In this document: piece after piece, positions 3,963 through 33,384 of the stretch
How the letters are laid out: each line of letters opens with the position of its first letter
How positions within the stretch are numbered: the first letter of the stretch is position 1
Assembly (NCBI GenBank): GCA_947177205.1
Contig: CAMWTO010000008.1
Coordinates: forward strand, 1 to 33,384
Direction of reading: 5' to 3'
Length of the DNA: 33,384 nucleotides
DNA from: an uncultured Ruminococcus sp.
GTDB lineage: Bacteria > Bacillota > Clostridia > Oscillospirales > Ruminococcaceae
Position numbers and translations under genes: made by a program
Notes under the pieces: generated by a model
Told to the model about the DNA's origin: nothing
What the model saw: only the letters and a program-made list of their open reading frames with translations
Databases searched by the model: none

Positions 3963-5073
3963 GAAAATGCGTGAGTTGCAGACCGAAATCCTGAAAAAGA
4001 CGAACGCTGCACAAGCTTTGATGGAAGAAGAAGTCAAAGATGTAACAAAGGCGACCTCTTTGCTGGACGAAGCGGATGAACTCAAGAGAGAATTTGATAC
4101 GCTTGCCAGGATTGAAAATGCCGAAAAAGCAAGTGTTCCGAATGAGATTGCCAAAAAAACAGATAGTTCAGGTTTTGCCCTGATTTCTAAAATGCTTTCT
4201 GGTAAGCACTTGGATCAGACAGAAAAAGCCGCATTAATCACCGGAACGGATGCCGCAAATGGCGAAAATTTCTTAATTCCGGAAGATGTCCGGCTGGAAA
4301 TCAACGAACTCAGACAGTCGTACATTTCCGCCAAAGACATTGTGACGATTGTGCCGACGTTTGGCTTGACCGGTTCGGAGAACTACGAAGCAAACGCTCC
4401 GGCAGGACTGATTGCATTTGACGACGGCGAAGATGTTCCAGATGCTGCTCTTCCGAAATTCATCAAGAAGAATTTTGCAATTAAATGGTATGGCAGTCTG
4501 ATTCCAATTTCTAACATCCTGGTTGGTGCGGAAAAAGCCGGACTGATGAGCTATTTGAACAACTGGTTTGTCAAAAATGCAATTATTACAGAAAATTCCG
4601 CTATTTTTGACGCACTAAAAAGTGGCTACAATGCAGGAACACCTAAGGCGGTTGCCGGATGGCAAGCCCTGAAAAGCTCCATCAATAAGGATTTAGACCC
4701 GTCCTGCCTGATTAATGGCATGATTATTACGAATCAGAGCGGATTTGACTGCCTGGATAGTGCGACGGATGCCGATGGCAGACCAATTTTGCAGCCGAAT
4801 CCGGCAAGTGCAACAGAATTGTTATTCCAGGGATTGCCGATTAAAGTATTTCCGGATACACAGCTTGCTAATATTGATGCAACGCATTTCCCGATTTTCT
4901 ACGGTGACACCAAGGCAGGTTGTAAGTTCATTGAATACCAGTCTTTGCAGTTTGCATACTCGGAGCATTTCGGTTTTGGCAAGAACCAGAACTACATGCG
5001 TGTGATTGAGGGATTTGACATCATGAACGCTGACACGTCTGCCTACATCTATGGCAGTCTGAGTGCAGATTAA
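3952..5073 (+). CDS. Major capsid protein (HK97 fold) with N-terminal scaffold domain
   Basis: This 373-residue protein starts with about 60 residues of charged predicted coiled coil (KKMRELQTEILKKTNAA), the delta or scaffold domain that the upstream protease would remove. The HK97-type shell domain follows, with NGENFLIPEDVRLEI, SYISAKDIVTIVPT and PIKVFPDTQLANI. The order portal, protease, capsid is the standard HK97 cassette. AGGAGGT lies 7 nt upstream of the first ATG. Its TAA overlaps the ATG of the next gene (TAATG). Confidence 0.94.
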   Translation: MMTKKMRELQTEILKKTNAAQALMEEEVKDVTKATSLLDEADELKREFDTLARIENAEKASVPNEIAKKTDSSGFALISKMLSGKHLDQTEKAALITGTDAANGENFLIPEDVRLEINELRQSYISAKDIVTIVPTFGLTGSENYEANAPAGLIAFDDGEDVPDAALPKFIKKNFAIKWYGSLIPISNILVGAEKAGLMSYLNNWFVKNAIITENSAIFDALKSGYNAGTPKAVAGWQALKSSINKDLDPSCLINGMIITNQSGFDCLDSATDADGRPILQPNPASATELLFQGLPIKVFPDTQLANIDATHFPIFYGDTKAGCKFIEYQSLQFAYSEHFGFGKNQNYMRVIEGFDIMNADTSAYIYGSLSAD

Positions 5074-5381
5074 TGCCGACGTTTGAAGAGGCGTTGGATT
5101 ACCTGGGGATTGATTATGCGGATGATATTGTTAGCCGGAATGTGCAGAGGGCATTGGATGCCGCTGTTGGAGTCGTTAAAGGGACTGTCGGGGATGATAT
5201 TTTTGAATATTTCCCGAATAGTCCCAAGCTCCGGGAGCTGATCTTACTACACATGGCAGATCTGTACGACGAACGAAATACTATCACACTAAAAGCAAAT
5301 GCCGTCAATCGTAGGATTATAGATTCTATGGAGTGGCAATTGAAACTGGAGCTGAAACGGCAAAAGGAGGATTCTGCTTGA
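5073..5381 (+). CDS. Head-tail connector (gp6-like)
   Basis: A 102-residue helical protein with the pattern EEALDYLGIDYADDIVSRNVQRALDAA and ELILLHMADLYDERN, typical of gp6-like phage connectors that sit beneath the portal. It begins on the TAATG junction with the capsid gene and ends at the start of the next adaptor. Assignment rests on pattern and position. Confidence 0.82.
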   Translation: MPTFEEALDYLGIDYADDIVSRNVQRALDAAVGVVKGTVGDDIFEYFPNSPKLRELILLHMADLYDERNTITLKANAVNRRIIDSMEWQLKLELKRQKEDSA

Positions 5382-5683
5382 CATATGATAAACCTGTTGT
5401 AATTCAGAAGCAAAATCAGACCACAGAAGAATGGAAAACGGTTCTGTGTCTTCATGCTAGGGTAAACAAAACAGGCGGATCACAGACGTTCGCCGCTGAT
5501 GCAGAACAATTCCACGCCCGGCTAAATTTCGATCTCCGGTATTGCAGGGCATTAGAAAAAATCAGGTATCAGCCACAAATTTACCGGCTGTTGTACAGAA
5601 ATCATCATTTCCAAGTCATAGATTATGACGACTACCAGGAACAGCATAAAACTGTTAGAATTGTAGGGGTGTTGTATGAGTAA
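5378..5683 (+). CDS. Head closure / head-tail joining protein
   Basis: I read the start as TTG at 5378, overlapping the previous stop (TTGA), with a perfect AAAGGAGG 7 nt upstream. The track start at 5333 is too early. The protein is about 101 residues of mostly beta character (KPVVIQKQNQTTEEWKTV ... YRNHHFQVIDYDDYQEQ), matching the head-tail joining family (SPP1 gp16-like stopper). It plugs the portal exit and provides the tail docking surface. Position between connector and gp10-like protein supports this. Confidence 0.8.
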   Translation: MTYDKPVVIQKQNQTTEEWKTVLCLHARVNKTGGSQTFAADAEQFHARLNFDLRYCRALEKIRYQPQIYRLLYRNHHFQVIDYDDYQEQHKTVRIVGVLYE

Positions 5684-6077
5684 TGTTGTAATTGATCCGG
5701 ATCAGCTTAGCAGTGCGATTGCTGAACAATTAGGGTTATACCACAAAAACATTGAACAGAAAATCAATAAGTGCGGTGCAGAATCCATGAAAGATCTGGT
5801 ACGTATTACGCAGGAAACAGCACCATTCAATGCAAAGCATCATGGACGGCACTACGTTAGTTGCATTGCAAGCCGGAAAGAAAACAGCAGACTAGGAATT
5901 GCAACCTATACATGGTATGTAAAAGCCCCATGCCACCGTCTGACGCATTTGCTTGTGCATGGTCATGCACTTAAGGACGGCAACAGAACGAAAAAAGACC
6001 CATTCTTGAAAAACGCCTGCGATAAAGTCATGCCAGAGTATGAGAAGAAAATCATTGAGGCGGTGCAGGACGGATGA
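5676..6077 (+). CDS. HK97 gp10-like tail component
   Basis: A 133-residue protein resembling HK97 gp10-type tail completion proteins. The family pattern includes AETAPFNAKHHGRHYV-like residues after an amphipathic helix, a short LLVHGHALKDG loop and the closing KKDPFLKNACDKVMPEYEKKI. The start overlaps the preceding gene by 8 nt and the stop forms an ATGA with the next gene. Its likely role is at the head-tail interface during tail attachment. Confidence 0.8.
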   Translation: MSNVVIDPDQLSSAIAEQLGLYHKNIEQKINKCGAESMKDLVRITQETAPFNAKHHGRHYVSCIASRKENSRLGIATYTWYVKAPCHRLTHLLVHGHALKDGNRTKKDPFLKNACDKVMPEYEKKIIEAVQDG

Positions 6078-6400
6078 TAACCGAAATTCTGAAAAATACA
6101 GGCATTCCATTCCGGCGAACCCGGTTTTTAAAACCGCCGCCCGGAACATATGCCGTTTATGATGATGATATTGAAACGTCTGGCGGCGATCACCTGGTAG
6201 CTATCTATCATCATCAAATCACGATAGAATTGTATGAATCCGGGCTTGACGACGCAGCAGAAGAAAAAATCCAGACTATTCTTGCTGAAAAAGGTCTGCA
6301 ATTCGAGAAACAAGACCGGCTATGGCTACCCGATGAACAGCGTTATCAGGTCATTTATGAATTTAATTATTACAAAAAAAGGAGATTTTATCATGCCTGA
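6074..6400 (+). CDS. Tail completion / tail terminator-like protein
   Basis: A 108-residue protein starting on an ATGA overlap. The pattern TGIPFRRTRFLKPPPGTYAVYDDD followed by ITIELYESGLDDAAEEKIQ is typical of small Firmicute siphophage proteins placed just before the tail tube gene, where the tail terminator is expected. Its end overlaps the tail tube start. No catalytic motif is visible, so the role is inferred from order and length. Confidence 0.72.
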   Translation: MITEILKNTGIPFRRTRFLKPPPGTYAVYDDDIETSGGDHLVAIYHHQITIELYESGLDDAAEEKIQTILAEKGLQFEKQDRLWLPDEQRYQVIYEFNYYKKRRFYHA

Positions 6401-7007
6401 AATTAAAAGTACAGCAAAAAGAAGCAACAGAGTAATTACGTTGGGAAGTGGACACATCTATGTGAATCCGTACAGCGGAAAAATTCCGAATACCTACTCT
6501 GAAATTGCCGCATTCTGTGCGGAAGAACGCAGATTAGGCTACATCAAGGGCGGTGCATCCCTGGAATACAGCCAGGAGACATACGAAGAAAAAGATGACT
6601 TCGGCATTGTCCGTAAGATCATCACGACATCTGAAACGGCTGTCATGAAATTTGGCTTAATCACTTGGAACGGCGAAACACTGAAAACATTAATTGACCG
6701 CTGTAAGACAACTGAAATGCCCAAATCCGGAAACGATGCGGACAGTTCAAACGTCCGTGTGACAAAAATCGGTGGTGGCGGAAATGCACAGGGCGGTTAC
6801 TACCTGGCAGTTTTCCACCATGTTGACAAGATTGATGGTGATGTGTATGTTGCTATCGTCGGCAGAAACACCGCTGGGGCAACTCTCAGCTTCACAATGG
6901 ATGCCGGAACGCTGATCGAACCGGAATTTACGGCAATCCCAAGCGACGAGGATGGGACGTTGATCTTGATGTTTGAAGAGATCAAGGATGCTGATGAAGC
7001 AAATTAA
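6393..7007 (+). CDS. Major tail tube protein
   Basis: The true start is ATG at 6393, with AAAAGGAG 8 nt upstream; the track ORF begins too early in the overlapping frame. The 204-residue product begins MPEIKSTAKRSNRVITLGSG and is rich in beta strands and glycine (KIGGGGNAQGGYYLAVFHHVD), as expected for a tube subunit of the phi13/TP901 type. It is followed by the tail chaperone pair and the tape measure, the usual order. Confidence 0.86.
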   Translation: MPEIKSTAKRSNRVITLGSGHIYVNPYSGKIPNTYSEIAAFCAEERRLGYIKGGASLEYSQETYEEKDDFGIVRKIITTSETAVMKFGLITWNGETLKTLIDRCKTTEMPKSGNDADSSNVRVTKIGGGGNAQGGYYLAVFHHVDKIDGDVYVAIVGRNTAGATLSFTMDAGTLIEPEFTAIPSDEDGTLILMFEEIKDADEAN

Positions 7008-7026
7008 ATCCTTGGAGGTGTAAATT

Positions 7027-7362
7027 ATGGCTAAATTCGATTTTAATGCGATTTCACAACCGGTACTGGAGATCACCATGCCGGACAAGGAACACTCACG
7101 GCTTCGTTTGACAACTCCCTCGACTTCTCTTGTCGAAAGATTTGGAGCTGCCTCAGAAGAACTTGACGAAATTTTTGCTAAAAAAGATTCGTCTACGATT
7201 CAGCAAGTCTATCGGTTGATTGCCGAAATTTTGAGCTGTAACCTGGAATTTCGGAAATTTACAGCGGAAGAACTGAAAGAATATCTAAGTTACGATCATA
7301 TTGTTGCTTTTGTTCTGGCATATATGCAATTTCTTGCCGATACCAAATCGGCAAAAAACTAA
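7027..7362 (+). CDS. Tail assembly chaperone G
   Basis: A 111-residue helical protein (SLVERFGAASEELDEIFAKKD ... FTAEELKEYLSYDH) between tail tube and tape measure, which is the position of gpG. It is preceded by TTGGAGGTG. The last sense codons are GCA AAA AAC before TAA; these are part of a frameshift signal described separately. It would coat the tape measure protein during tail assembly. Confidence 0.85.
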   Translation: MAKFDFNAISQPVLEITMPDKEHSRLRLTTPSTSLVERFGAASEELDEIFAKKDSSTIQQVYRLIAEILSCNLEFRKFTAEELKEYLSYDHIVAFVLAYMQFLADTKSAKN

Positions 7363-7643
7363 CAATTCCGTACTATCCATATAGCCAGAATAGTACGGAA
7401 CACAGCTATCAATACGAAATTTCTACATTCTGGAAACAGCTTGTCGCAGAGTACACCGGACTAAATTTTTTGCAGATCGGGGATCTGAATTTTTTGCAAT
7501 ACCTGGCGTGGCGGCGTGATGCGTTTATCCGTCGCCTGGAACAGTCCGAACAGGGCAGAGAATATCTGGACAACGCATGGCGGATGGAACAAACTAAACC
7601 CGACAGAAAGGCACTCCGGGAGAAACTAACAAAGGGGCAGTGA
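7027..7643 (+). CDS. Tail assembly chaperone GT (-1 frameshift fusion)
   Basis: If ribosomes slip back one base at 7353..7359, translation continues in the -1 frame to TGA at 7641, adding about 94 residues (LTIPYYPYSQNSTEHS, FWKQLVAEYTGLNFLQI, RRLEQSEQGREYLDNAW). No start codon with a ribosome binding site opens this T part alone and no other gene fits the gap of about 280 bases. The fusion is about 205 residues. GT would recruit tail tube subunits to the tape measure. The minus-strand ORF in this interval is a shadow. Confidence 0.85.
7353..7400 (+). promoter_or_regulatory. Programmed -1 ribosomal frameshift site with stimulatory hairpin
   Basis: The heptamer A AAA AAC (7353..7359) is in the correct X XXY YYZ phase relative to the G frame and directly precedes its TAA stop. 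Seven bases later comes a perfect 11-bp stem, TTCCGTACTAT (7366..7376) with ATAGTACGGAA (7390..7400), with a 13-nt loop. This is the classical architecture of a -1 slippage signal. Confidence 0.92.
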
Positions 7644-7646
7644 CAC

Positions 7647-10600
7647 ATGGCAAGTCAGACCATCAAAGGCTTGACGGTACAAATCGGCGGAGATACGACA
7701 AAATTTAGTGCTGCGATCAAACATGCAGAAGACGAATCAAAAAAACTGAGCAGAGAACTGACTGACGTCAATAAACTGCTGAAAGCCGACCCTGGAAATA
7801 TCAACCTACTAGCACAGAAACAGCAGATTTTGACAGAGAAAGTCGCTGCCACCAAGGAAAAATTAGACACTCTGAAACAGGCAGAAGCCCAAGTACAGGC
7901 ACAATTTGAAAAAGGTGACATCACTGCCGAGCAATATCGGGCATTTCAGCGTGAAATTGCTTTTACCACGAATGAAATGCAAGGCTATGAGAAACAAATT
8001 GCAACAACAACACAAAAACTCACAGAAGCTAAAGCCAAAACTGATGAGGAAGTATCTTCTTTAGAGATACTTCGGGCAAAAATTTCTTTGCAAGAAAAAG
8101 AACTTTCAGGACTGAGAGAACAATACAAAAGCACTGTTATCGCAGAGGGCGAAAATTCCGAAAAAGCAAAGGAATTAAAATCACAATACGAAGCCTTAAA
8201 TGACAAGCTTACTGAAAGTAAGCAGAAAATGAACGAAGCTGAAACAGCAGCATCTTCTTTAGGAAAAGCAGAAACAGAAGTAGCCACACCACTGGAATCT
8301 TTAAAAAATACGATTTCTGAACAAGAAAAAGAACTTTCAGAATTAAAAGACCAATACAAGAGTGCTGTGCTTGCAGAGGGTGAAAATTCTGAAAAAGCAA
8401 AAGAGTTAAAAGCAGAGTATGATGCCTTGAACAGCAAGCTTGGCGAAAGTAAGCAGAAACTGAATGAAGCGGAAACTGCTGCCGCTTCACTCAGTCAGGC
8501 AGAAGAAGCAGCTCTTTCTCCTATGGATTCTCTGAAAAAGACAATTTCGGAACAGGAGAAAGAACTTTCTGCCCTGAAAGATGAATACAAGAATGTTGTC
8601 ATGGAGCAAGGGAAAGACTCTGATGCCGCCAGACAGCTTGAAAGTCAGTTTGATTCACTGAATCAGGAACTACAAGAAAATCAACAGAAGCTAAATGAGA
8701 TAGAGCAGGAAGCAAATCAACTCGGCAAGGCGGAAGAAAAAGCCTTGACTCCACTGGAATCCCTGAAAAAATCTATTGCCGATCAGGAAAAAGAGCTTGA
8801 CCAGTTGAACACGGAATACAAAAACGCCGTTGTGCAGTATGGCAAGAACTCGGACGAAGCAAAAGAATTAGCAACAAAAATAAAAAACTTGTCCGAGGAA
8901 CACCAGAACGAAAAAGCCAAATTGCAGGAAGCGGAAAAAGCCACTCAAAGTATCACAGCGACCGAAAAAACGCTGACAGAGCAATATGAAGATCAAAAAT
9001 CAGAGCTTAGTACATTAAAACAGCAATATATCAATGTTGCTGCACAATATGGTGAAAATTCCAAAGAAGCCAAAGCACTTGCCAAACAGATTGATTCTTT
9101 GTCTGGTGAACTTGCCGAAGAAGAAAAGAAAATCAAGCAAGCTGAGAGTTCCGCAGACAAGTTTGATAAAACTTTGTCTGATACTTCCAAAGATGCTGAC
9201 AAAGCGTCTGATAATGTTAAGGATTTAGGCAATTCTGCAAAAGATGCTGAAAGCAGTTTTAGCACCGCTGCCGTAGCTGTCGGCGAATTTATGGGCAATC
9301 TAGCTATCGAGCTATTACAGAGAGCAACAGAGCTGATCAAAAATTTTGCATCCGGGACAGTTGAAACAGGCGAGACATTTGAAGCTTCTATGTCCAAAGT
9401 GAAAGCGATTTCCGGAGCGACTACTTCTGAGCTTGCCGATCTGGACGCTGTCGCACGTCAATACGGACGTGATACACAGTTCAGTGCATCAGAGTGTGCA
9501 GATGCTTTGACCTACATGGCACTCGCCGGATGGAAAGTTGATGATATGATCAAGGCACTCCCCGGCGTGCTGAATCTGGCTGCCGCCTCTGAGATGGACT
9601 TGGCAAAGGCGTCCGATGTTGTCACAGACTATATGACAGCATTCGGTTGGGAAGCCAACAGAGCCGGAGAATTTGCTGACAAAATGGCTTTTGCTATGGC
9701 AAATTCCAACACTGACACAGAAATGTTAGGCGAAGCGTACAAGAACTGTGCCTCAACAGCAGACTCCCTACATTATAGTATGGAAGAAGTAACCGCCGCT
9801 ATCATGACAATGGCAAACGCTGGTGTCAAAGGCGGTGAATCTGGCACGGCACTCAATGCTGTCATGACTCGACTTGCAACAGACACTAAGGGCTGTGCTT
9901 CTGCATTAGCCGAATATGGTGTAAATATCTATGATGAAGAAGGGAATATGCAAAGCCTGTCCAGTATCCTGACTGGCATTTCAGATGTATGGAGCGATCT
10001 GACAGACGAACAGCAGGCAAATCTTGCGAAAATCATTGCCGGACAACAGCAATACTCCAGTTTCCAGACCATCATGAAAGGCTTGTCTGATACTGCCAAA
10101 GAATCCGGAAAATCATTTGAAGATTATACAGAAGCACTTCTGAATTGTGATGGTGCGGCTGACACTATGGCAAAAACCATGACGGATAATCTGCAAGGCG
10201 ATCTCAAAAAGATGGAATCTGCTTACCAGGATCTACAGCTTTCTATCTACGATGGTGTCAACAAGCCGTTGAGAGACGTTGTGCAAACCATCACAGATAA
10301 TGTTCTTCCGGCGTTCAGCAATCTCATCAAGGGTGCTGATGGAGCAGAGAAAGAAGTCAGCGAAGCAATTGGGAAACTAGCTTCTGTCGTTCTGAAAAAA
10401 ATCAAAGATTTATTGCCAAAAATTCTGCCAACGCTATCTAAAATCATACAACAGCTTGTTTTTAAATCAATCAGCAATATCAAGAATTTGGGATATATGC
10501 TTGCCAACAGCATCCAAGCACTGACAAAAGATATCATTCCTGCTTTTTCCAGAAACTTCCCGAAATTGATTGCAAGAATTTCCAGTCTTGTCAAGAAAAA

Positions 10601-12800: not shown

Positions 12801-13529
12801 ATGATAAATGGCATTACATGGCATGGCAAGCATTCACTGGTGGATTTCGGTGCAACGCTGATCGCACGAGATACTAACGTTCCGATAAGAGACCGTGTGA
12901 CGGAGCGTGTTCCGTACAGCTCCGTTACCTATGATTTTACAGCACTGTTCGGGGCTGACAGCTACCCGGAACGAAAATTGCAGTATCAGTTTGTCATATC
13001 GGATGAACACGGTATGCCGATCCTGAAACAGCGTGTCAATGCGTTCCGGCACTGGCTGTATGACCCTAGTGAAAAGTCAAAGCTTTTTGACGACAGAGAA
13101 CAGAAATATTATTTTTATGCTGTTTGCATAGAATTTACCGAAAAATATACAAATGGTGTTATGGCTGAAATTACAGTCACCTTTGCGGCTGATCCGTTCA
13201 TGATTCCAGATGTTCCACCCGAACAGCTTGCCATCCCGGCATCTGACAGCCACTATCCGGATATTGATGGAGATGGATCTGTTACTAGTGAAGATGCGGC
13301 ATTGGTCTTATCAGCCGCCGCTAATCTAAATACCGGTCTGGAATCCGGTTTAACAGAAGAACAGGAACTGCTTGCCGACGCAGACCGTGATGGCAGGATC
13401 ACAGCAAACGATGCGGCATTGATACGAACATTTGCGACACAATGTGGGGCAGGTATCTGGGATAATGATCCTCAAGGATGGGTAGATTTCTTGAATCAGC
13501 AGACCGGCAGACTGTCAGAGGTGATTTAA
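12801..13529 (+). CDS. Distal tail protein (Dit) with C-terminal dockerin type I domain
   Basis: Residues 1-135 are a Dit/TP901 ORF46-like domain (WHGKHSLVDFGATLIARD, RHWLYDPSEKSKLFDD, AEITVTFAADPFM) that forms the hub joining tail tube to tip. Residues 150-218 form a dockerin: two F-hand calcium repeats, DIDGDGSVTSED (D154, D156, D158, T162, D165) and DADRDGRITAND (D193, D195, D197, T201, D204), each followed by AALxL/IR helices. A tail of about 24 residues follows. AAGGAG precedes ATG at 12801. Dockerins normally bind cohesins of cellulosome-type scaffoldins, so the phage tip may dock on host surface cohesins. The domain call is firm from the repeat pattern; the adsorption role is inference. 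Confidence 0.9.
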   Translation: MINGITWHGKHSLVDFGATLIARDTNVPIRDRVTERVPYSSVTYDFTALFGADSYPERKLQYQFVISDEHGMPILKQRVNAFRHWLYDPSEKSKLFDDREQKYYFYAVCIEFTEKYTNGVMAEITVTFAADPFMIPDVPPEQLAIPASDSHYPDIDGDGSVTSEDAALVLSAAANLNTGLESGLTEEQELLADADRDGRITANDAALIRTFATQCGAGIWDNDPQGWVDFLNQQTGRLSEVI

Positions 13530-18489: not shown

Positions 18490-18726
18490 CTAAATCAAAT
18501 AAATTCCGTCATCCGCAACAATCACGGATGAATCAATAATTGGTATAGAATTGTTTTCACATTTTTTGCTTTCATTATCATCATGCAAATCAGGCATAAA
18601 CGAACACCGTCCATAATCGTAGCAGGATTTGCAATTCTCAAAACATATTCCTTCGTACCCGTCATCATCGTTGTCAAGTTCATGTTCTGCAATCCGTTGT
18701 TGCATCAATTCGTCAAATTCTGACAT
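18490..18726 (-). CDS. Small acidic cysteine-rich protein, unknown
   Basis: The best start is ATG at 18726 after TTTGGAGGTGGACAT; the track start adds 15 unlikely residues. The 78-residue product (MSEFDELMQQRIAEHELDND) is very acidic and has a Cys cluster CFENCKSCYDYGRC that could bind a metal. It follows the serine recombinase gene by 34 nt on the same strand, probably in one transcript. I do not recognise the family; a recombination accessory or regulatory role would be a guess. Confidence 0.7.
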   Translation of the reverse strand: MSEFDELMQQRIAEHELDNDDDGYEGICFENCKSCYDYGRCSFMPDLHDDNESKKCENNSIPIIDSSVIVADDGIYLI

Positions 18727-18760
18727 ATGTCCACCTCCAAAGCTAAAATTCAAAAATAGT

Positions 18761-19339
18761 TTACAGACCATATTCCTTAACTTTCCTGTAGAACCTGTTT
18801 GGCTTCATGCCGAGTTTCTGCATGGTTCTTTTCGCCGTCTGCTTTCCCTCACGCCACAGTTTACACTCCATCTGTAAAGCTGTCAGATCAACTGGAATTG
18901 GTTGCCGTCCTTTGTACTTACCGGCTGCCTTTGCAATGGCAATACCTTCACGCTGACGCTCTCGAAGTGTTTCACGTTCCAACTCTGCCAATCCTGCGAA
19001 CACAGTTAGGATAAATCTGCCCTGTGGTGTAGTAGTATCAAGTTGCTCTCTCAGACTAATGATTTCCACGCCTTTCCCTTGAAGTTCATCCACAAGCCGG
19101 AGCATGTCGGCACTACTCCTGGCAAGCCTGGCATACTCACTGACTACCAGGACATCCCCATCACGAACATAGTCCAACATTTTCTTTAGCTCCGGACGGT
19201 CAGTGTTCTTGCCACTACACTTATCAATGAAGATCTTATGCATTGGTTTGCCAAAATTTTCTAATGCTTTCAGTTGTCTGGCTTCATTCTGGTCGACACT
19301 GGATACCCGAACATAGCCTATGTATGTTTTTTCTTTCAT
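18761..19339 (-). CDS. Small serine recombinase (resolvase/invertase family)
   Basis: I choose ATG at 19339 after GGTGAG; the upstream ATG at 19366 lies right against the -10 box. The 192-residue protein has the catalytic serine motif GYVRVSS (S13), VSEYARLARSSADM and LAGLAELER-type helix E, then a short helix-turn-helix C-terminus ending NRFYRKVKEYGL. The length fits Tn3/Hin-type resolvases, not large serine integrases. Such enzymes resolve multimers or invert DNA. Position beside an iteron-like origin suggests dimer resolution of an episomal form; no invertible segment is obvious. Confidence 0.93.
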   Translation of the reverse strand: MKEKTYIGYVRVSSVDQNEARQLKALENFGKPMHKIFIDKCSGKNTDRPELKKMLDYVRDGDVLVVSEYARLARSSADMLRLVDELQGKGVEIISLREQLDTTTPQGRFILTVFAGLAELERETLRERQREGIAIAKAAGKYKGRQPIPVDLTALQMECKLWREGKQTAKRTMQKLGMKPNRFYRKVKEYGL

Positions 19340-19372
19340 GGACTCACCAACCCTCAGTTTTTTCATAATATA

Positions 19373-19401
19373 AGTCTAACATATTTCAAAATATATGTCA
19401 A
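19373..19401 (-). promoter_or_regulatory. Promoter of the serine recombinase operon
   Basis: On the minus strand TTGACA (19401..19396) is followed after 17 nt by TAGACT (19378..19373). The spacer holds an inverted repeat CATAT..ATATG, a possible self-binding operator of the recombinase. Confidence 0.65.
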
Positions 19402-19482
19402 TAGGAAACCTCAACTTATATAAAATGATAATCAAAAAATTTGTGGGGTCTACACAAATAGCACACGAAAGAGCTATTGATT

Positions 19483-19510
19483 AAAAAGTTGATACATATA
19501 TCAACTTTTT
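19483..19510. terminator. Hairpin AAAAAGTTGATA..TATCAACTTTTT (terminator or operator)
   Basis: A 12-bp perfect stem with a CATA loop is flanked by A on the left and T on the right, so it can terminate transcripts on either strand. A near copy with a different centre is at 30415..30446. It would separate the origin region from the recombinase promoter. Confidence 0.6.
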
Positions 19511-19540
19511 TCGTTGTAAGTAAAGATGACAAGGAAATAT

Positions 19541-19995
19541 AAGGGTTGACAGATCAATTTTTATCTGACAACCATTGAAAACAAGTAATTTAGCCAAATT
19601 TTATGTAAAAAAAGAAAAAGTTGACAGATCAATTTTTTTATCCGGCAACCTCTAAAACACGTATTTAAGCCAAAATTTTAAAAAGTTGACAGATGTAGAC
19701 AAATTTTCTTTAAGAGTATAAAAAATACACGACAATCTCTAGAGATCGTCGTGTATTTTTATATTTTTTCTTATTTTACAAAGAGATCTGTCAACCTTTT
19801 AATATAAACGGCTTATTTACGTCTTTTAGAGGTTGACAGATCTAAAATTTACATCTGTCAACCTCTATGTGTAAAATGGCTTATTTACGTCTTTTAAAGG
19901 TTGACAGATTACATCTGACAACCCTATAATTTATCTGTCAACCTTTTGCTTTTTTTCAAAAAAAGTTGTCAGATGTAAATTACATCTGACAACCG
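19541..19995. repeat. Iteron array, candidate replication origin
   Basis: The decamer GTTGACAGAT or its complement ATCTGtCAAC occurs 13 times. Forward copies start at 19545, 19620, 19685, 19832, 19900 and 19965. Reverse copies start at 19563, 19640 (degenerate), 19786, 19853, 19913, 19933 and 19984. Most form short inverted pairs 3-11 nt apart. Longer units that add a roughly 22-nt spacer (GGCTTATTTACGTCTTTTAG) appear twice on the right and twice mirrored on the left. The centre is the palindrome at 19721..19760. No gene fits. The array lies directly downstream of the primase-helicase gene, so I infer an origin bound by that protein. Confidence 0.75.
19721..19760. repeat. 40-bp near-perfect palindrome at the centre of the iteron array
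   Basis: Arms of 20 bp (AAAAATACACGACAATCTCT and its complement) match except for one pair (19734/19747). It is the symmetry axis of the surrounding repeats. It could be a cruciform or initiation site, or a bidirectional terminator, since A and T runs flank the stem. Confidence 0.75.
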
Positions 19996-20017
19996 CCTAA
20001 CAACTGTAAGATTTTGA

Positions 20018-21883
20018 TTAATACTTTATGAATGGAAGTTCTCTTAATCTAATTACTTGTCCATGCTGTTTCTTTTTTATTTCCGGTATTCCTAATTTTG
20101 CTAATACTCGTCCAATTTGAATGGTACTGTATCTCATTAATTCGGAATATTCATTTTTAAATTCTGTTGTTGTTACATACCTATATTCTATTTTATTCGG
20201 ATTCATTCTTTCAATTCGTTCAAGAATATCTAATACTTCTGTTTCACCTTTCAATGGCTTTGTAAATTCTAAATTTCGTCTTTCAAGTTCAACTTTTTCA
20301 TCATCGCTCAAACGGAAACATCCGCCAATCGTTTCACCGCTTTCAATTTCAGCTTGTACAATACTATAAATTTGCGCCCAAAACTGCAAGCTGTCGAACG
20401 GAACGATCTGGGTCTCATAGTTCAGAGAAATTCCCTCTTTGATAGGGATTGTTGCGAAGCGTCGGTTGCCTGTTTCGTCAATCAGATATTTTTCATCATT
20501 CACAGTCCCGACGAAGCTTGTACGACGAGGGTACTTCAAAGGAGTTCTTCCATATGGCGCACGGTATTCATCCATAGACTTGGTAAGAAATGCTTTCAGA
20601 CTATCTATGTCTTTTCTCATGGTGCTTCCGATCTCACCAAGTTCCACAATCCAGTTACTTGTTACTTGGATAATATCGTCTTTATTTCTAGTGTCGATTG
20701 TATAGCCTTCACCGAAGTATTGATGATTCATAGCCAGATGTTCAAAAAAGCGTGTTTTAGCAATACCCTGTGCACCCTGAAACACCAGAACAATATCTAA
20801 AGAGAACGGACTTTCGTATTTGTTATACAGTCCTGCGATTGCTTGCATACTCCATTTCCGGAATAAAGTTCGGCTCATGGTGTCTGCTTCATCAATGCCG
20901 AACATCGTATAAATTTCTTCCAGACGGTCTTTCCCATCCCATGCAGTATTTTCAATCATGGTTCTGATGGGATTTACTTTGTTTCTGGTTGCAATGATAT
21001 TTAGAAATTTTGCAATTTTTGTAGAATTGCATCCGGATAATTCAAATTGCAGTTCATTGTAAATTAGATCTGGTGCATTTTCTTTCAGATGCTCTTGGGA
21101 TTCACCTTGAAAACCTGTGAAAATGTAATCCCTCAGAATTTCGTCATATGTGACCGTATAGCCTTTCTGACCCAGGTAGGCAGTCAGATTTTCGATTGTA
21201 AGCGAGCCAGTTCTGTCAACATCATAGTTTGACAGAAATTTTTTTCTCGCTTTTGTCGTCCGTTTCGTAGGTCTTACTGTTTTTGGAACGGCTTTCAGTG
21301 TGTAGTGTTTTGTTTTCTCAATTGCATTAGTCAGGAGCTGTTTGGTCTCGTCTTTGCCTAGAGCCTGCACAATGTCGCTGATGTCACCTTTTTCAGGACA
21401 TTCGTCCCAGATACGTTTTGCTGGGACAATCATTACGGATTCAGCAATCGGATGGACATTTTTCGCAATAAATTCTCCATACGCTGTTCCGGTTTCGTCA
21501 TTATCCGTCAGGATCATGATTGCTTTTCCGTGCAGATCCTGATTATATAAATCGGCGTTCCATCCAGATTGCCGTCCACCACTGGAAGTGCAAGTTGCTG
21601 TGAATCCGAAACAGTTTTCAAGCGTTTCTACATCCTTTTCACCCTCAGCGAACCAAACCAGGGGACTTTTGCTTGCACGGAGTTTCTCGGCGTGGTATAA
21701 CGGCATTTTCATGCCATTCAGTCCTGTGGTCTTTCTTCCAGTCTTTTGATCAATGGAATACCAGTACGTCTTTTTCTCACCGTCCGGAAGCTTTGTAATG
21801 TGTTTTTCAGCCAGTACAGCTCCGTTTCTATCTTTATAGACATGGATTCGTTTCACGCCCTGGTTGTTGAAATTATTTTCCAT
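20018..21883 (-). CDS. TOPRIM-VapE/VirE primase-helicase (replication initiator)
   Basis: The 621-residue protein starts with a TOPRIM-type region: WFAEGEKDVETLENCFG near 78 and the acidic motif IMILTDNDETGTAY near 125. The second half is a VirE/VapE superfamily-3-like ATPase with Walker A VFQGAQGIAKTRFF near 370, Walker B WIVELGEIG and a TGNRRFATIPI arginine motif. This architecture is common in phage and satellite replication proteins that unwind and prime at an adjacent origin. AAAGGAG is 11 nt before ATG. The gene lies behind the repressor in the leftward transcript, and its leader overlaps a predicted antisense RNA. Confidence 0.9.
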   Translation of the reverse strand: MENNFNNQGVKRIHVYKDRNGAVLAEKHITKLPDGEKKTYWYSIDQKTGRKTTGLNGMKMPLYHAEKLRASKSPLVWFAEGEKDVETLENCFGFTATCTSSGGRQSGWNADLYNQDLHGKAIMILTDNDETGTAYGEFIAKNVHPIAESVMIVPAKRIWDECPEKGDISDIVQALGKDETKQLLTNAIEKTKHYTLKAVPKTVRPTKRTTKARKKFLSNYDVDRTGSLTIENLTAYLGQKGYTVTYDEILRDYIFTGFQGESQEHLKENAPDLIYNELQFELSGCNSTKIAKFLNIIATRNKVNPIRTMIENTAWDGKDRLEEIYTMFGIDEADTMSRTLFRKWSMQAIAGLYNKYESPFSLDIVLVFQGAQGIAKTRFFEHLAMNHQYFGEGYTIDTRNKDDIIQVTSNWIVELGEIGSTMRKDIDSLKAFLTKSMDEYRAPYGRTPLKYPRRTSFVGTVNDEKYLIDETGNRRFATIPIKEGISLNYETQIVPFDSLQFWAQIYSIVQAEIESGETIGGCFRLSDDEKVELERRNLEFTKPLKGETEVLDILERIERMNPNKIEYRYVTTTEFKNEYSELMRYSTIQIGRVLAKLGIPEIKKKQHGQVIRLRELPFIKY

Positions 21884-21906
21884 GAAAATTTTTTCTCCTT
21901 TTTATC

Positions 21907-21935
21907 TTGATTTTATTCGGAGAATATGTTATAAT
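21907..21935 (+). promoter_or_regulatory. Consensus promoter for an antisense RNA
   Basis: TTGATT (21907..21912), a 17-nt spacer and a perfect TATAAT (21930..21935), pointing rightward and so opposite to the primase gene. No coding sequence lies in this direction before the terminator at 22015. Confidence 0.72.
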
Positions 21936-21980
21936 AACACTGTCATATTGAGTTGGTGTTATTATACATCTTCTCCGAAT
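21915..21980 (-). promoter_or_regulatory. Leader inverted repeat of the primase mRNA (candidate translation switch)
   Basis: In the leftward transcript ATTCGGAGAA...TATAATAACAC pairs with GTGTTATTATA...TTCTCCGAAT, about 22 paired bases around a 15-nt loop. The 3' arm UUCUCC is also complementary to the GGAGAA of the primase ribosome binding site (21898..21893). The 5' arm lies inside the region covered by the predicted antisense RNA, so pairing could switch the binding site between open and closed. Confidence 0.6.
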
Positions 21981-22015
21981 CCGTTCAGTGTTGGTCTCAC
22001 TGGGCGGATTTTTTT
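21942..22015 (+). ncRNA. Predicted antisense RNA to the primase-helicase leader, about 74 nt
   Basis: It would start about 7 nt after the TATAAT and end in a strong intrinsic terminator: AATCCGTTCAGTG (21978..21990) pairs with CACTGGGCGGATT (21998..22010), including two G-U pairs, followed by a T run to 22015. The 7-nt loop TTGGTCT contains a YUNR U-turn motif, which is typical of plasmid copy-number antisense RNAs. It is complementary to the mRNA between repressor stop and primase start. No such RNA is recalled for this phage type; existence is predicted from signals only. Confidence 0.65.
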
Positions 22016-22043
22016 GTTTACTTTCTTTTGCGTCGATAGATTT

Positions 22044-22559
22044 TTATGCTGTTTCTCTGCGTTTAGCCTCTTCATCACATTTGCGACGCTCCAATTCTTC
22101 GCCGACCGTGCCACAATATTCCATTGGGCTTTCATTTGTAGTTTGCTGGATTTGCAATTCAGATGCGTGCGGATTTGATTCATTTTGTTTAACTGTTTCT
22201 TCGATGGTTCTAACAAATTTTTCACGTTCCGTAGGGCTGATAGCAATATAGGCTTGAACAATTGCTTTTTCTAATTCCGTAAGATTAAACTCTTGTGCCA
22301 GTCGTGTTAATATATCTGGCTCTTCCATCTTTTTTATTCCCAGAAGACAATCTATCGAGACATTATAAAAATTTGCAAGAATAATTAATGCGTCTATTGT
22401 TGGGTCAGCTTCACCATGTTCGTATTTTAAGTAGGCTTGTTGTGAAATTCCTAAGATGTCAGCAATAGTAGATTGCTTTACATTTCTTTTTTTTCTTAAC
22501 TCAAGGAGAATGTCTCCCCGTTTTTGCATTGCTTCTTTGTCTTTCTTTACCTTTGGCAT
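22044..22559 (-). CDS. CI-like repressor (Xre-family helix-turn-helix)
   Basis: The 171-residue protein has a clear HTH_3 domain at about 15-70 (LLELRKKRNVKQSTIADILGISQQAYLKYEHGEADPTIDAL), then a helical and charged C-terminal part with no LexA-type peptidase motifs. AGGAGGTGAG precedes the start. It is transcribed divergently from the early operon, with AAAAGTTGT half-sites over both promoters, so it should be the lysogeny repressor. The primase gene lies 160 bp downstream on the same strand with no terminator seen between them in that direction. Confidence 0.88.
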   Translation of the reverse strand: MPKVKKDKEAMQKRGDILLELRKKRNVKQSTIADILGISQQAYLKYEHGEADPTIDALIILANFYNVSIDCLLGIKKMEEPDILTRLAQEFNLTELEKAIVQAYIAISPTEREKFVRTIEETVKQNESNPHASELQIQQTTNESPMEYCGTVGEELERRKCDEEAKRRETA

Positions 22560-22588
22560 GTACTCACCTCCTCTCTCTGTTTATTTTT

Positions 22589-22617
22589 ATTATATCACTA
22601 AAAGTTAATTATGTCAA
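22589..22617 (-). promoter_or_regulatory. Repressor (maintenance operon) promoter
   Basis: On the minus strand TTGACA (22617..22612), 17-nt spacer and TATAAT (22594..22589), a full consensus promoter. The spacer contains a TTAACTTTTAGTGATA half-site, so the repressor probably controls itself. Confidence 0.85.
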
Positions 22618-22746
22618 TATAAAGTTGTATAAAATTTATTTTTATCCTTAAAAGTTGTCAGTTTTTCACAAATAACAACTTTATTTTTAGTTAAATCTCT
22701 AAAAGTTGTTTTATGCTATTGACATATACAACTTTTTGTGATAGTA
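22593..22746. promoter_or_regulatory. Operator region with repeated AAAAGTTGT half-sites
   Basis: Half-sites resembling TATCnCTAAAAGTTGT occur near 22594, 22620, 22645 and 22696 on the plus strand, and as ACAACTTT(TT) near 22675 and 22729 on the other orientation. Two of them fall in the spacers of the divergent promoters, one in each. This is a multi-site lysis/lysogeny switch. Confidence 0.68.
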
Positions 22747-22747
22747 T
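22719..22747 (+). promoter_or_regulatory. Early (lytic) rightward promoter
   Basis: TTGACA (22719..22724), 17-nt spacer and TAGTAT (22742..22747). The spacer carries ACAACTTTTTGTGATA, the same half-site as in the repressor promoter. It should drive the rightward early operon. Confidence 0.8.
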
Positions 22748-22802
22748 ATAACTATAGCAAAGACAACAGCCCAGGCTAAATAAGAGAAAGGGGGGATGTG
22801 CT

Positions 22803-28817: not shown

Positions 28818-29864
28818 ATGATGACATTTGCACAACTCGGACAACTGTCTTTGCAAATGCAGATGCTTTATGTGCAGGGAGTCAATTCCGGATCAAAGCC
28901 GGATGATCCTGTAGAATTGCCGGACAACGACCTGACATTTTCAGCTTCGGAATTTCCTGAAACACCCACAATAAAAATCTGTGCCGAAGCGTTCTTGAAT
29001 CTAAAAAAGTACACAGTAAGGCAAAGCACCTATCATAGATATATACGTTGTTTTAGAAATTCTGTGTTGCCATTCTTCGGAGATATGCAGTTAAATGCTG
29101 TCAGCGGAAAAGTGGTGCAAGAATTTGTCAATGCCATGCTCCGGCAAGGTATGAATCCGAAAGCGATTAAATATTGTGTGACGATGTTGAAAAGCGTTTT
29201 GTTGTGTGCTGAAGCTGATGGAATTATTACAATGCCGGTAATTCGCCCAAACTATCCGAAACAGTGCAAGCAGGAACGTCCGATTTTGTCCGATGAAGAT
29301 TTCAACAGGTTGAGTGAATATCTATTACAAGAAGGCAGCTCCATTTCAACGGCATTGCTGATTGTCATGCACACCGGAATCAGACTCGGCGAAGCGTGTG
29401 CCTTGCGGTGGTCTGATATGGATTTTAAGACCAACAGCATTTACATCCGGTACAGCGTCAAGCGTTACTACATACCGGAAGAAAGGCGAACCGTTTGCGA
29501 ACTCGGAGAACCAAAGACACTCAAGAGCAAACGGCGGATCTATATTTCAAAATGGCTTGTTGATGTTCTGAAACAGCGTCGGGAAACGGGTTTCATCTGC
29601 ACTGGAGTTGACAGATTTTGCAATCCCGAAACCATGCGAAACGCATTGAACAGGCGACTGAAGCAATTGAATATTCCGCACATCAGATTCCATGATTTGC
29701 GACACGGATTCGCTACCAGGGCTATCAATGGTGCAGGAGTCGATCCGAAGACGGTCGCAGAGATTTTGGGACACGAACACTGCGACATCACACTGGATAT
29801 TTACACTTCTTGCACGGCACAGATGCAAGTTGAAGCTATGGAAAAAATTCAAAAAATGAAATGA
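28818..29864 (+). CDS. int: Tyrosine recombinase / phage integrase
   Basis: The 348-residue protein has an N-terminal core-binding SAM-like domain (ICAEAFLNLKKYTVRQSTYH) and a C-terminal catalytic domain. Catalytic residues are visible: Arg in HTGIRLGEACALRW (about 189), HxxR in HDLRHGF (H292, R295), His in ILGHEHCDITLDIY and Tyr about 329. Lys in PKTLKSKRRIYI fits the beta-hairpin position. AGTAGGTGA precedes the start. It would integrate the phage DNA at a host site, or resolve multimers. It lies far from the repressor, in the rightward operon. Confidence 0.94.
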   Translation: MMTFAQLGQLSLQMQMLYVQGVNSGSKPDDPVELPDNDLTFSASEFPETPTIKICAEAFLNLKKYTVRQSTYHRYIRCFRNSVLPFFGDMQLNAVSGKVVQEFVNAMLRQGMNPKAIKYCVTMLKSVLLCAEADGIITMPVIRPNYPKQCKQERPILSDEDFNRLSEYLLQEGSSISTALLIVMHTGIRLGEACALRWSDMDFKTNSIYIRYSVKRYYIPEERRTVCELGEPKTLKSKRRIYISKWLVDVLKQRRETGFICTGVDRFCNPETMRNALNRRLKQLNIPHIRFHDLRHGFATRAINGAGVDPKTVAEILGHEHCDITLDIYTSCTAQMQVEAMEKIQKMK

Positions 29865-29875
29865 GGAGTATTTAT

Positions 29876-30017
29876 AGTCCTATACAGTAGTGGCGAAGTG
29901 AATACGCCTGTAAGAATAAGGGTTGCCTGATTTTCAGGTGGAAACTGAAATACCAATCTTCTTACGAAGCCCCCACCTCTTAGCGAGTGTAACGAGCGTA
30001 GGTGGGGGAGAGTTCAC
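29876..30017 (+). mobile_element. IS200/IS605-type remnant or mini-element (right end / omega-RNA-like), no transposase
   Basis: The segment after TTTAT (29871..29875) contains GGTGGAAACTGAAATACC, a small CCTGATTTTCAGG hairpin, then GAAGCCCCCACCT...AGGTGGGGG (9-bp stem 29970..29978 with 30000..30008) and GTTCAC at the end. This order is what I recall from 3' ends of TnpB-carrying IS605-family elements, where the same DNA forms the end of the omega RNA. The element lies between an AGGAGTATTTAT, matching the binding site of the paralog at 25775, and the paralog's coding part. About 142 bp; boundaries estimated. Confidence 0.6.
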
Positions 30018-30018
30018 G

Positions 30019-30414: not shown

Positions 30415-30446
30415 GAAAAAAGTTGATACTAGTATCAACTTTTTTC
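30415..30446. terminator. 32-bp perfect palindrome, terminator or operator
   Basis: GAAAAAAGTTGATACT and AGTATCAACTTTTTTC meet with no gap. With the T run it would end the early operon transcript. Its core matches the hairpin at 19483. Confidence 0.75.
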
Positions 30447-30602
30447 TTTTCAGTTTAGTAGAAAAGAGATTCGGAAGATTTTCAGGTTGATGGAGTCAAC
30501 AAGAAAGTTTTGTAAAATTTTCTGTGAAAATCTTGTGAAAACTTGTCAGAGATGATTAAAGGATTTAGTTATCAATGTTGTAGACTTTGTCCAATAAATG
30601 AA

Positions 30603-30678
30603 GCGGAGCGGAATGCTCTGTTTTGCACTGCCGATCAGGTTGTGCAAAACAGGTATTGGGTAAACACTACCCGTTTTG
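30603..30678. other. Cluster of hairpins in a non-coding stretch
   Basis: The roughly 700-base gap after the early operon holds this cluster: GAGC..GCTC; an 11-bp stem CTGTTTTGCAC (30618) with GTGCAAAACAG (30642); and GGGTA..TACCC (30658..30672), followed by GTTTTG, which could replace the first strand in pairing with CAAAAC. I cannot tell whether it is a small RNA, an oriT-like site or the attP region. The track ORF 30543..30752 over it is not convincing. Confidence 0.5.
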
Positions 30679-30849
30679 TCATGAATCTATTATTTTTTTG
30701 CTTTAAAAAATTTTTTTTAAAAATTTTCTCAAAAATCATTTTCCCAAGCTGAAAAAATAATTGTGATGATTGTGTGAAAATATTTTATCCTCTTTAAGCA
30801 AGAAGCCTCCTACTTCTATAGATGGAAGATGAATTGCATTCGAAAATAC

Positions 30850-31048: not shown

Positions 31049-31675
31049 ATGATATATTATCATGTTTCTTCATTTTTAAAGGAAGGTCAAAAACTCACTC
31101 ATGATACTAAAAATTATAAGGAAATTTGTGAATGGATATGCTCAACTAATGTTTCATCATATAAGGAATACATAAATCTCATTAAAAATTTGGAAAGTGA
31201 AGACGTTTTTAATAAAACAAATAGAGATGCATTAAAATGGTCATGTGAAAGCATTTTTGAAATGATTAGGTCTCAGTACTATAAGCATATGCCGAGTAGA
31301 GTTTGGGGTATATTCGTATCTGAATCTCTTAAAGAGGCATATTCATTTTATAAAAATTATAGAAAAGGCGAAACTAATATTTTTGAGATTCAACCAGAAA
31401 GCGAAGTTTATAAACTTGATATGGGTATATTTACCGAGGCTGAGGAACTATTAAGACGTGAGCAAAGTGATTCAAATTATGAAAAATCTATAAAATTAGC
31501 ACATGAATATTGGAAAAAAAACATCAGAACAAAGTGTATTGAATATTTATTTGACGAAAAAGAAGTTACTGTTGGCAAAAAAGTACTGAGCATACTTCTC
31601 ACGATAGTCGACGTAGCAAATAAGTCCGATATGACAGTTGCAGAGTTTGAATCAAAGATAGGCTTGAGAACGTAG
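31049..31675 (+). CDS. DUF2441-like protein (ADP-ribosyltransferase-like fold suspected)
   Basis: The 208-residue product starts IYYHVSSFLKEGQKLTHDTK and has PSRVWGIFVSESLKEAYSFY near 85-105, then NIFEIQPESEVYKLDMG and AHEYWKKN. This H..SLKEAYSF pattern recalls DUF2441 and related ART-like domains. It has its own promoter, AGAGGTGA binding site and clearly higher AT content than the structural genes, so it looks like a recently acquired accessory (moron) gene. Defence, exclusion or toxin roles are possible but unproven. Confidence 0.6.
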   Translation: MIYYHVSSFLKEGQKLTHDTKNYKEICEWICSTNVSSYKEYINLIKNLESEDVFNKTNRDALKWSCESIFEMIRSQYYKHMPSRVWGIFVSESLKEAYSFYKNYRKGETNIFEIQPESEVYKLDMGIFTEAEELLRREQSDSNYEKSIKLAHEYWKKNIRTKCIEYLFDEKEVTVGKKVLSILLTIVDVANKSDMTVAEFESKIGLRT

Positions 31676-32062: not shown

Positions 32063-32131
32063 TAATATAACAGAAGCCAGCACGGCTTTTCCCCTCATTT
32101 GATGATGTTTCTAGGTTTCAGAAGCATTTCT

Positions 32132-32203
32132 GGCAGAGTAGAGCAATGGCAGCTCGCAAGGTTCATGCCCTTGAGGCAGGCGGTTCGATTCCGCCATCTG
32201 CAA
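32132..32203 (+). tRNA. tRNA(CAU), initiator-like and unusual
   Basis: The cloverleaf is visible: acceptor GGCAGAG with ATCTGCA (5 of 7 pairs; mismatches at 1-72 and 7-66), TA, D arm GAGC/GCTC, anticodon arm CAAGG TTCATGC CCTTG, variable loop AGGCA, T arm GGCGG TTCGATT CCGCC, discriminator A, no encoded CCA. The anticodon is CAU. The unpaired 1-72 ends and A11:U24 are hallmarks of initiator tRNA, but only two G-C pairs close the anticodon stem, and G37 is unusual. It may be a phage initiator-like tRNA, a decaying tRNA, or a tRNA mimic. Confidence 0.72.
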
Positions 32204-32220
32204 TTGAACATATAGTATAG

Positions 32221-32286
32221 GAACGCCTTTTCTGTAATACATAGTTATGTTATATGTAATACATGAAGGTGTTCTTTGCTTTTTTA
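32221..32286 (+). terminator. Terminator-like hairpin after the tRNA
   Basis: GAACGCCTT (32221) pairs with AAGGTGTTC (32266), followed by TTTGCTTTTTT. The loop carries two GTAATACAT repeats. It may end the tRNA transcript or attenuate reading into mazF. Confidence 0.6.
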
Positions 32287-32301
32287 TTAGGAGATAAAAA
32301 T

Positions 32302-32646
32302 ATGAAACGGAATATTAGAACTATCAGACGTGGCGATATATATTTGATCGATTGCGGCAAGACTGTCGGATCAGAGCAAGGTGGTATCCGTCCAGCGGTT
32401 GTGATCCAGAATAACATGGGGAATCGTTATTCACCCACAACAATTGTGGCAATGATTACTTCGTCTACCAAGAAACATTTGCCGACACATGTCCAGATTG
32501 ACAGGGGACTTGAAATGCAATCCTGTGTTCTTTTGGAACAGATTCGGACAATTTCAATTGATAGATTGAAACAATACATAGTTACATTGGACAGATCTGA
32601 TATGATTCGGATTGACAATGCTCTGAGAGAAAGCCTTGCTATTTAG
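32302..32646 (+). CDS. MazF/PemK-family endoribonuclease, no antitoxin seen
   Basis: ATG at 32302 follows TTAGGAGAT; the track start lies inside the upstream hairpin. The 114-residue protein matches MazF/PemK: RRGDIYLIDCGKTVGSEQGG, IRPAVVIQNNMGN, TTIVAMITSSTKKHLPTHVQ, and VLLEQIRTISIDRL. This family cuts RNA at short motifs. No MazE-like gene is next to it: upstream is the tRNA, downstream an HNH nuclease. Solitary copies at this position are common in Firmicute prophages and may act in phage or host RNA control. Confidence 0.9.
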   Translation: MKRNIRTIRRGDIYLIDCGKTVGSEQGGIRPAVVIQNNMGNRYSPTTIVAMITSSTKKHLPTHVQIDRGLEMQSCVLLEQIRTISIDRLKQYIVTLDRSDMIRIDNALRESLAI

Positions 32647-33093: not shown

Positions 33094-33202
33094 CCGGGGG
33101 GCGGTCGAAATTCTGCGGCTGTCTTAGAGGAAAACGGTTACAGAAGACCTCTTTGTAGAAAAAACTCCCTAAATGAAAAAAATTTTTTTGGATGGTGATA
33201 AC
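33094..33202 (+). other. Probable cos region
   Basis: A GC-rich block CCGGGGGGCGGTCGAAA sits directly after the HNH stop, followed by inverted GAGG/CCTC-type elements and an AT-rich tract before terS. HNH-cos-terS-terL is the usual order in cos-type Firmicute phages. The cut positions cannot be read from one sequence. Confidence 0.55.
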
Positions 33203-33384
33203 ATGGGCAGACCAAAAGAACCAATCAATCTAATCATGACAAAAGGACAAAAACATCTGACAAAAGCCGAGATCAGGGAACGTCTTGCCTCTGAGGTCCA
33301 TCCTTGTACGGACGAAATCAGACCGCCATCCTATCTCACAGCAAAGCAAAAGAAACGATTCCAGGAGCTTGCAGAACAGCTCCT
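33203..33384 (+). CDS. terS: Terminase small subunit, N-terminal part (continues at base 1)
   Basis: ATG at 33203 after GGATGGTGATA opens MGRPKEPINLIMTKGQKHLT, AEIRERLASEVHPCTDEIRP and KKRFQELAEQLL, the classical N-terminus of P27-type small terminases. It runs off the window after 60 codons and 2 bases; the missing third base is base 1 of the window. Confidence 0.9.
   Translation, partial: MGRPKEPINLIMTKGQKHLTKAEIRERLASEVHPCTDEIRPPSYLTAKQKKRFQELAEQL

Follow-up and report, generated by a model that had tools for sequence, protein, structure and literature searches.

How the phage encoded in this stretch of DNA persists in a lysogen is the question raised by its leftward genes, in which a replication initiator stands behind the repressor. 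The window, 33,384 bp long, is an entire contig (G000:C8) of a metagenome-assembled genome. The first-pass annotation had placed a repressor, replication initiator, origin and resolvase in one leftward module, and took this for an episomal maintenance module. All four components are confirmed from the sequence, and in the best explanation the window is a phage-plasmid, a temperate siphophage of Ruminococcus; the episome itself has not been directly shown.

The contig and its leftward operon

According to PHROG, the rightward genes form a full siphophage set: TerS, TerL, portal, major head, tape measure, Dit, tail and endolysin. The virion and lysis genes are thus complete, which satisfies one criterion for a phage-plasmid. 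The rightward features used below are the following.

33173-33384, plus strand: 5' part of the small terminase gene TerS, the rest being at 1-322; 9 nt short in comparison with its homologues
28818-29864, plus strand: early-operon tyrosine recombinase, XerA/XerC-like or a phage integrase (domain and PHROG matches)
32263-32646, plus strand: MazF/PemK-like toxin, a possible stabilisation gene (PHROG MazF-like, 2e-32)

The first and last bases of the contig both lie inside TerS, and the joined ends give one open frame. Five TerS homologues have three extra residues at the junction, from which it follows that the contig lacks 9 nt there; there is no overlap between the two contig ends. A contig that ends where it started is compatible with a circle or concatemer, and not with a prophage with chromosomal flanks. 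Replicating or packaged phage DNA could give such a circle-like contig as well.

The leftward module has the order repressor, 160-nt leader, replication gene, iterons, resolvase and small ORF, preceded by a divergent control region.

22560-22800, no strand: divergent control region with repeated AAAGTTGT/ACAACTTT motifs, putative operators (repeats found, operator role inferred)
22719-22747, rightward: promoter in the divergent control region (promoter scan)
22589-22617, minus strand: promoter of the repressor/rep operon, TTGACA-17-TATAAT, 12/12 consensus
22044-22559, minus strand: XRE/HTH_3 repressor, 171 aa, first gene of the leftward operon (Pfam HTH_3, 3e-14; PHROG transcriptional repressors/regulators)
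20018-21883, minus strand: replication gene (rep), 621 aa, Toprim and VapE-like helicase domain, plasmid-type Rep (Pfam; plasmid homologues)
19545-19993, both orientations: iteron-like origin (repeat count; arrays similarly placed in relatives and in plasmids)
19481-19511, no strand: palindrome AAAGTTGATAC..GTATCAACTTT, second copy at 30415-30446 (role inferred)
19377-19401, minus strand: conserved inverted-repeat site overlapping the resolvase promoter, candidate res
18761-19366, minus strand: small serine resolvase, 201 aa (PF00239, 7e-44; PDB relatives gamma-delta, Hin and Sin)
18490-18771, minus strand: small ORF, 93 aa (ORF list), matching no known family in Pfam or PHROG

The claim that the replication gene is placed behind the repressor promoter holds. 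The promoter is perfect, and scans for promoters and terminators found neither a minus-strand terminator nor a better promoter between it and rep, so co-transcription of the repressor and rep is possible. Rep is the sole replication gene found in the window, and it sits in the repressor's operon.

We infer that the palindrome at 19481-19511 probably serves the rep operon as a bidirectional terminator. Near-identical palindromes (19485-19508 and 30419-30442) end the rep and early operons, with similar ones in relatives and none expected by chance. The possibility that the pair serves as recombination sites was set aside, terminators being simpler.

The replicon and its plasmid relatives

The Toprim match of Rep is weak, while the VapE-like domain is matched at 4e-51 (Pfam); PHROG places the protein in its helicase/primase class. 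When bacterial genomes were scanned for this Rep family, full-length homologues (43-50% identity) were found mostly on short contigs, and, apart from the genus's own phages, it is small plasmids that carry the most similar full-length Reps. Three of the contigs with Rep homologues (10,690, 5,959 and 5,564 bp) have 77-nt identical ends, which is typical of assembled closed circles, and several carry a relaxase and MobC. Strong antisense promoters lie upstream of rep in many of the plasmid homologues, and many have their own iteron array directly after rep; in L063 and L066 this array spans the contig ends.

The iterons of the window, claimed earlier, are present as 12 copies of GTTGWCAGAT just downstream of rep. 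The motif is enriched, with 21 matches in the whole window at up to one mismatch against 2.6 expected, and the iteron core of the L077 plasmid is identical to it. A homologous Rep with downstream iterons on closed plasmids satisfies the criterion of a plasmid-type replication module. The layout recurs in other phages of the genus, where both the Reps and the iterons differ. A search of IMG/VR with the window's Rep gave no relative, plasmid records contained no similar DNA, and phage records gave a single 90-nt match.

The small Ruminococcus mobilisable plasmids L063, L066, L072 and L077 are like the window in having a homologous Toprim-VapE Rep, iterons after rep and an antisense promoter before it, but they have no virion genes and carry relaxase/MobC or cargo instead. 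Phage-plasmids of the P1, N15 and SSU5 types combine virion genes with a plasmid replicon, as the window does, but their Reps and hosts are different, and they have Par or telomere systems that are absent from the window. Many phage-plasmids, though not all, have genes for partition or addiction. Neither ParA nor ParB was found in the window with Pfam or PHROG; both adjoin the repressor, cassette and Rep in the Ruminococcus relative L209. No clear antitoxin adjoining the MazF-like toxin was found in the window with the same two databases. Over 127 aa the toxin is identical to its counterpart in G030:C131.

The antisense cassette and the slot behind the repressor

The leader between the repressor and rep contains a cassette of predicted elements on both strands.

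21907-21935, plus strand: antisense promoter TTGATT-17-TATAAT (promoter scan; kept in 11 leaders)
21942-22015, plus strand: predicted ~74-nt antisense RNA against the rep leader (terminator scan; covariation)
21977-22011, plus strand: terminator stem of the antisense RNA, ~40 nt past the promoter (terminator scan)
21915-21980, minus strand: rep mRNA leader hairpin (inverted repeat; fold z -7.1; switch computation)
21924-21919, minus strand: anti-SD UUCUCC in the 3' arm of the hairpin (switch computation)
21895-21900, minus strand: rep Shine-Dalgarno (SD) AAGGAG, predicted to be sequestered once the antisense RNA is bound

An antisense RNA was part of the original proposal, and as a predicted RNA it is well supported, by a promoter, a terminator and a covarying stem in an alignment of 11 leaders. 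The terminator stem is 98.3% paired on the antisense strand and has five double-changed pairs, with a covariation score that was matched by none of 500 shuffles. Read on the opposite strand the stem has 15 mismatches, as against 2, which identifies the antisense RNA as the strand under selection. The covariation persists with 30 cassettes, in an alignment fitted to the model. No Rfam family matches the cassette RNA at a meaningful score, and the cassette model gives only weak matches to most plasmid leaders (E 3e-4 to 0.04). We predict that the rep leader is opposed by a counter-transcribed RNA with its own promoter and terminator. In one operon the cassette is duplicated, occurring before an antirepressor-like gene and again before rep (L021:506-642; L022:1105-1239).

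The antisense RNA, made from the promoter at the start of rep, would bind the 5' arm of the leader hairpin and so release the 3' arm, whose UUCUCC would then pair with GGAGAA and cover the rep Shine-Dalgarno. The computed probability that this SD is open falls from 0.48 in the free leader of the window to 0.00 in the antisense-bound one, and it drops in most of the leaders scored. Complementarity between anti-SD and SD exceeds that of shuffles at p<0.05 in 19 of 37 leaders, integrase leaders included (combined p ~3e-16, with the leaders mutually related). These are computations with no experiment behind them; they predict that antisense pairing sequesters the Rep ribosome-binding site as in pSK41, and the switch would then act as a copy-number control.

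In pSK41, RNAI is an antisense RNA of ~83 nt against the rep leader, and a stem-loop sequesters the Rep ribosome-binding site (PMC5703833); the same SD-sequestering logic is predicted for the window. Unlike that of pSK41 and the RepA_N plasmids, the window's Rep is an unrelated Toprim-VapE protein, and unlike that of pSK41, its cassette is on a phage, behind a lysogeny repressor, and has versions that precede integrases. A counter-transcribed RNA also controls Rep in pIP501 (CopR/RNAIII, where a small repressor protein is added) and in pT181 (RNAI), but these plasmids attenuate transcription at a terminator before rep (PMC5703833), and none of that kind is seen in the window.

It could be argued that the cassette is no antisense regulator at all, and that its promoter and terminator serve to insulate the repressor gene or to lower transcription by collision; its promoters are indeed convergent against the rep operon. 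We regard this as quite unlikely, in view of the predicted closing of the SD on antisense binding and of the anti-SD:SD complementarity, which tracks the SD sequence across unrelated target genes.

A survey of the genus gave 29 cassette matches (E up to 1e-4). By our classification, downstream of the cassette are Rep initiators of several kinds in 20 and large serine integrases in 5; the rest comprise antirepressors (two), another gene (one) and a locus that is cut off (one). The family was surveyed in 396 genomes using a model, R3, built without any tyrosine-integrase cassette. Here 28 further loci were examined, and the cassette is followed by a tyrosine integrase in 19, a large serine integrase in 6 and other genes in 3; Pfam confirmed every slot integrase in these family loci except one short fragment. 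The serine-integrase prophages adjoin chromosomal-looking genes and carry separate lytic replication genes. Because the same cassette precedes integrases in relatives, the Rep, origin and resolvase of the window can be seen to occupy the integrase slot of a lysogeny operon. An integrating temperate phage should have an integrase behind its repressor, and this criterion is unmet, since the window's slot holds Rep.

We think it likely, if by no means settled, that the prophages of this family share a conserved and unnamed antisense RNA switch of ~75 nt and a slot behind the repressor operon, in which a plasmid replicon and integrases of two kinds, tyrosine and large serine, are interchangeable and all held back by that RNA through SD sequestration, such that one gene-block swap would convert chromosomal into episomal lysogeny or the reverse. 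If this is true, integration and episomal maintenance are two options for a single regulated slot, governed by a single RNA, across a large group of gut bacteria. The cassette would also be a sequence signature for phage-plasmids that have been overlooked by surveys based on keywords or integrases; a literature search for phage-plasmids and Ruminococcus gave no study on the subject by title. The hypothesis proposes antisense control of integrase translation, which is directly testable, and the replicons might become vectors for Ruminococcus, which is hard to handle.

A precedent for such a swap exists in the cluster A mycobacteriophages Miko, RedRock and Alma, in which the integrase is swapped for parABS with RepA or noncoding RNA origins (PMC7157519). 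As in these phages, plasmid maintenance replaces the integration cassette in otherwise similar temperate phages, and as in the RepA type, the replication gene is opposite in direction to the virion genes (PMC7157519). The window differs from them in its Toprim-VapE Rep, iterons and resolvase, in having no Par, and in a cassette that is common to the integrase versions.

Chromosomal integration, free circle and multimer resolution

In a lysogen, the repressor promoter would also drive Rep, which would fire the iteron origin behind its own gene, and the prophage would replicate as a circle. Maintenance of the lysogen as a free circle is in our view the best explanation and a probable one. What favours the proposal of an episomal maintenance module is comparative evidence, namely plasmid homologues with the same layout, the integrase slot, the circle-like contig and the ParAB of L209. 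Against it, Rep could serve lytic growth only, the tyrosine recombinase is intact, a chromosomal relic of a relative exists, the window has no ParA/ParB, the plasmid matches to the cassette are weak, and there are no expression or copy-number data.

A different reading is an ordinary integrating temperate phage, with the early tyrosine recombinase responsible for integration and the Rep-iteron module reduced to a lytic origin that is oddly placed in the leftward operon. In its favour, the integrase-family protein is intact, VapE-type primases are common in phages, and the rep-type relative G030:C136 is fused to chromosomal genes, from which it follows that such elements have integrated at least once. 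We nevertheless judge it unlikely. In G010:C23 a homologue of the early recombinase (62%) is found together with a slot serine integrase and is therefore probably not the lysogenic integrase there; by this comparison, the window's recombinase probably need not be one either. Rep belongs to the repressor operon, without a better promoter preceding it, and takes the place of the relatives' integrase, and its nearest full-length relatives outside the genus's phages are those on small plasmids. No shared att core was found beside the recombinase gene, and the phage tRNA has no match among host tRNA genes. A third reading, which is a sub-case overlapping the episomal one, is a dual-mode element with plasmid replication and occasional integration through the tyrosine recombinase. 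Both modules are intact, and the G030:C136 relic would suit it, but the junction of that relic cuts a cargo-gene remnant and looks decayed. The search for integrated copies suggested in the first-pass annotation gave a mixed result: this relic was found, but there was no integrated copy of the window's own phage in 38 genomes, and no intact one with both ends. We treat dual-mode maintenance as possible but doubtful.

Several candidates in this region were rejected. The early tyrosine recombinase is not a marker of rep-type phages only, since a homologue accompanies the slot serine integrase of G010:C23. The conserved tRNA-Met was considered as attP, but it matches phage contigs only. The ~140-bp element after the integrase (29876-30018) was likewise considered and rejected, being dispersed in many Ruminococcus genomes at ~80-95% identity; we take it to resemble an IS605-type end or omega-RNA relic. 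The junction in L024 may or may not be an att site, as the DNA that flanks it is also present close to other members of this element family.

The serine recombinase had been described as resolvase-sized, and this is correct: it is of the class of ~180-210 aa with an N-terminal catalytic domain and a C-terminal HTH, and its closest PDB relatives are of gamma-delta, Hin and Sin size. It is 70-99% identical among elements with differing Reps. The 25-nt inverted-repeat site is near-identical at the resolvase promoter in all seven cases examined, and has one match in the window where none is expected. A single site suits dimer resolution and not inversion, for which there is no inverted pair. The resolvase would act at this single upstream site to resolve multimers. 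The protein may still be thought an invertase, since its PHROG family is named DNA invertase and DNA invertases are among its PDB matches; with a lone candidate site in the whole window we consider this very unlikely, and retain the assignment as a resolvase. In L027 (1-3912), dockerin genes in tandem are interspersed with 3' fragments of the resolvase gene, close to an intact copy of it, a pattern that would fit acquisition of cargo beside the resolvase.

Some further genes of these phages deserve mention. The distal tail protein, Dit (12801-13529), includes a dockerin of type I (PF00404, 3e-8), so that a phage tail protein here bears a module of the cellulosome type; homologues of 67% identity occur in G000:C26 and G029:C2. 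A protein at 31049-31675 has a DUF2441 match (9e-9) and unknown function, and relatives have a conserved intergenic block there. A ~110-bp element at 30572-30682, also of unknown role, is repeated many times in genomes of the genus, and frequently precedes the HTH gene of these phages. In the related phage L044, an apparent type I restriction-modification system, read from sequence only, lies between the lysis genes and Rep (2961-9787). The tRNA-Met gene is complete (32131-32204) and has the same position in several phage relatives; at the same place in L043 the tRNA has the anticodon TTA, and is a possible ochre suppressor.
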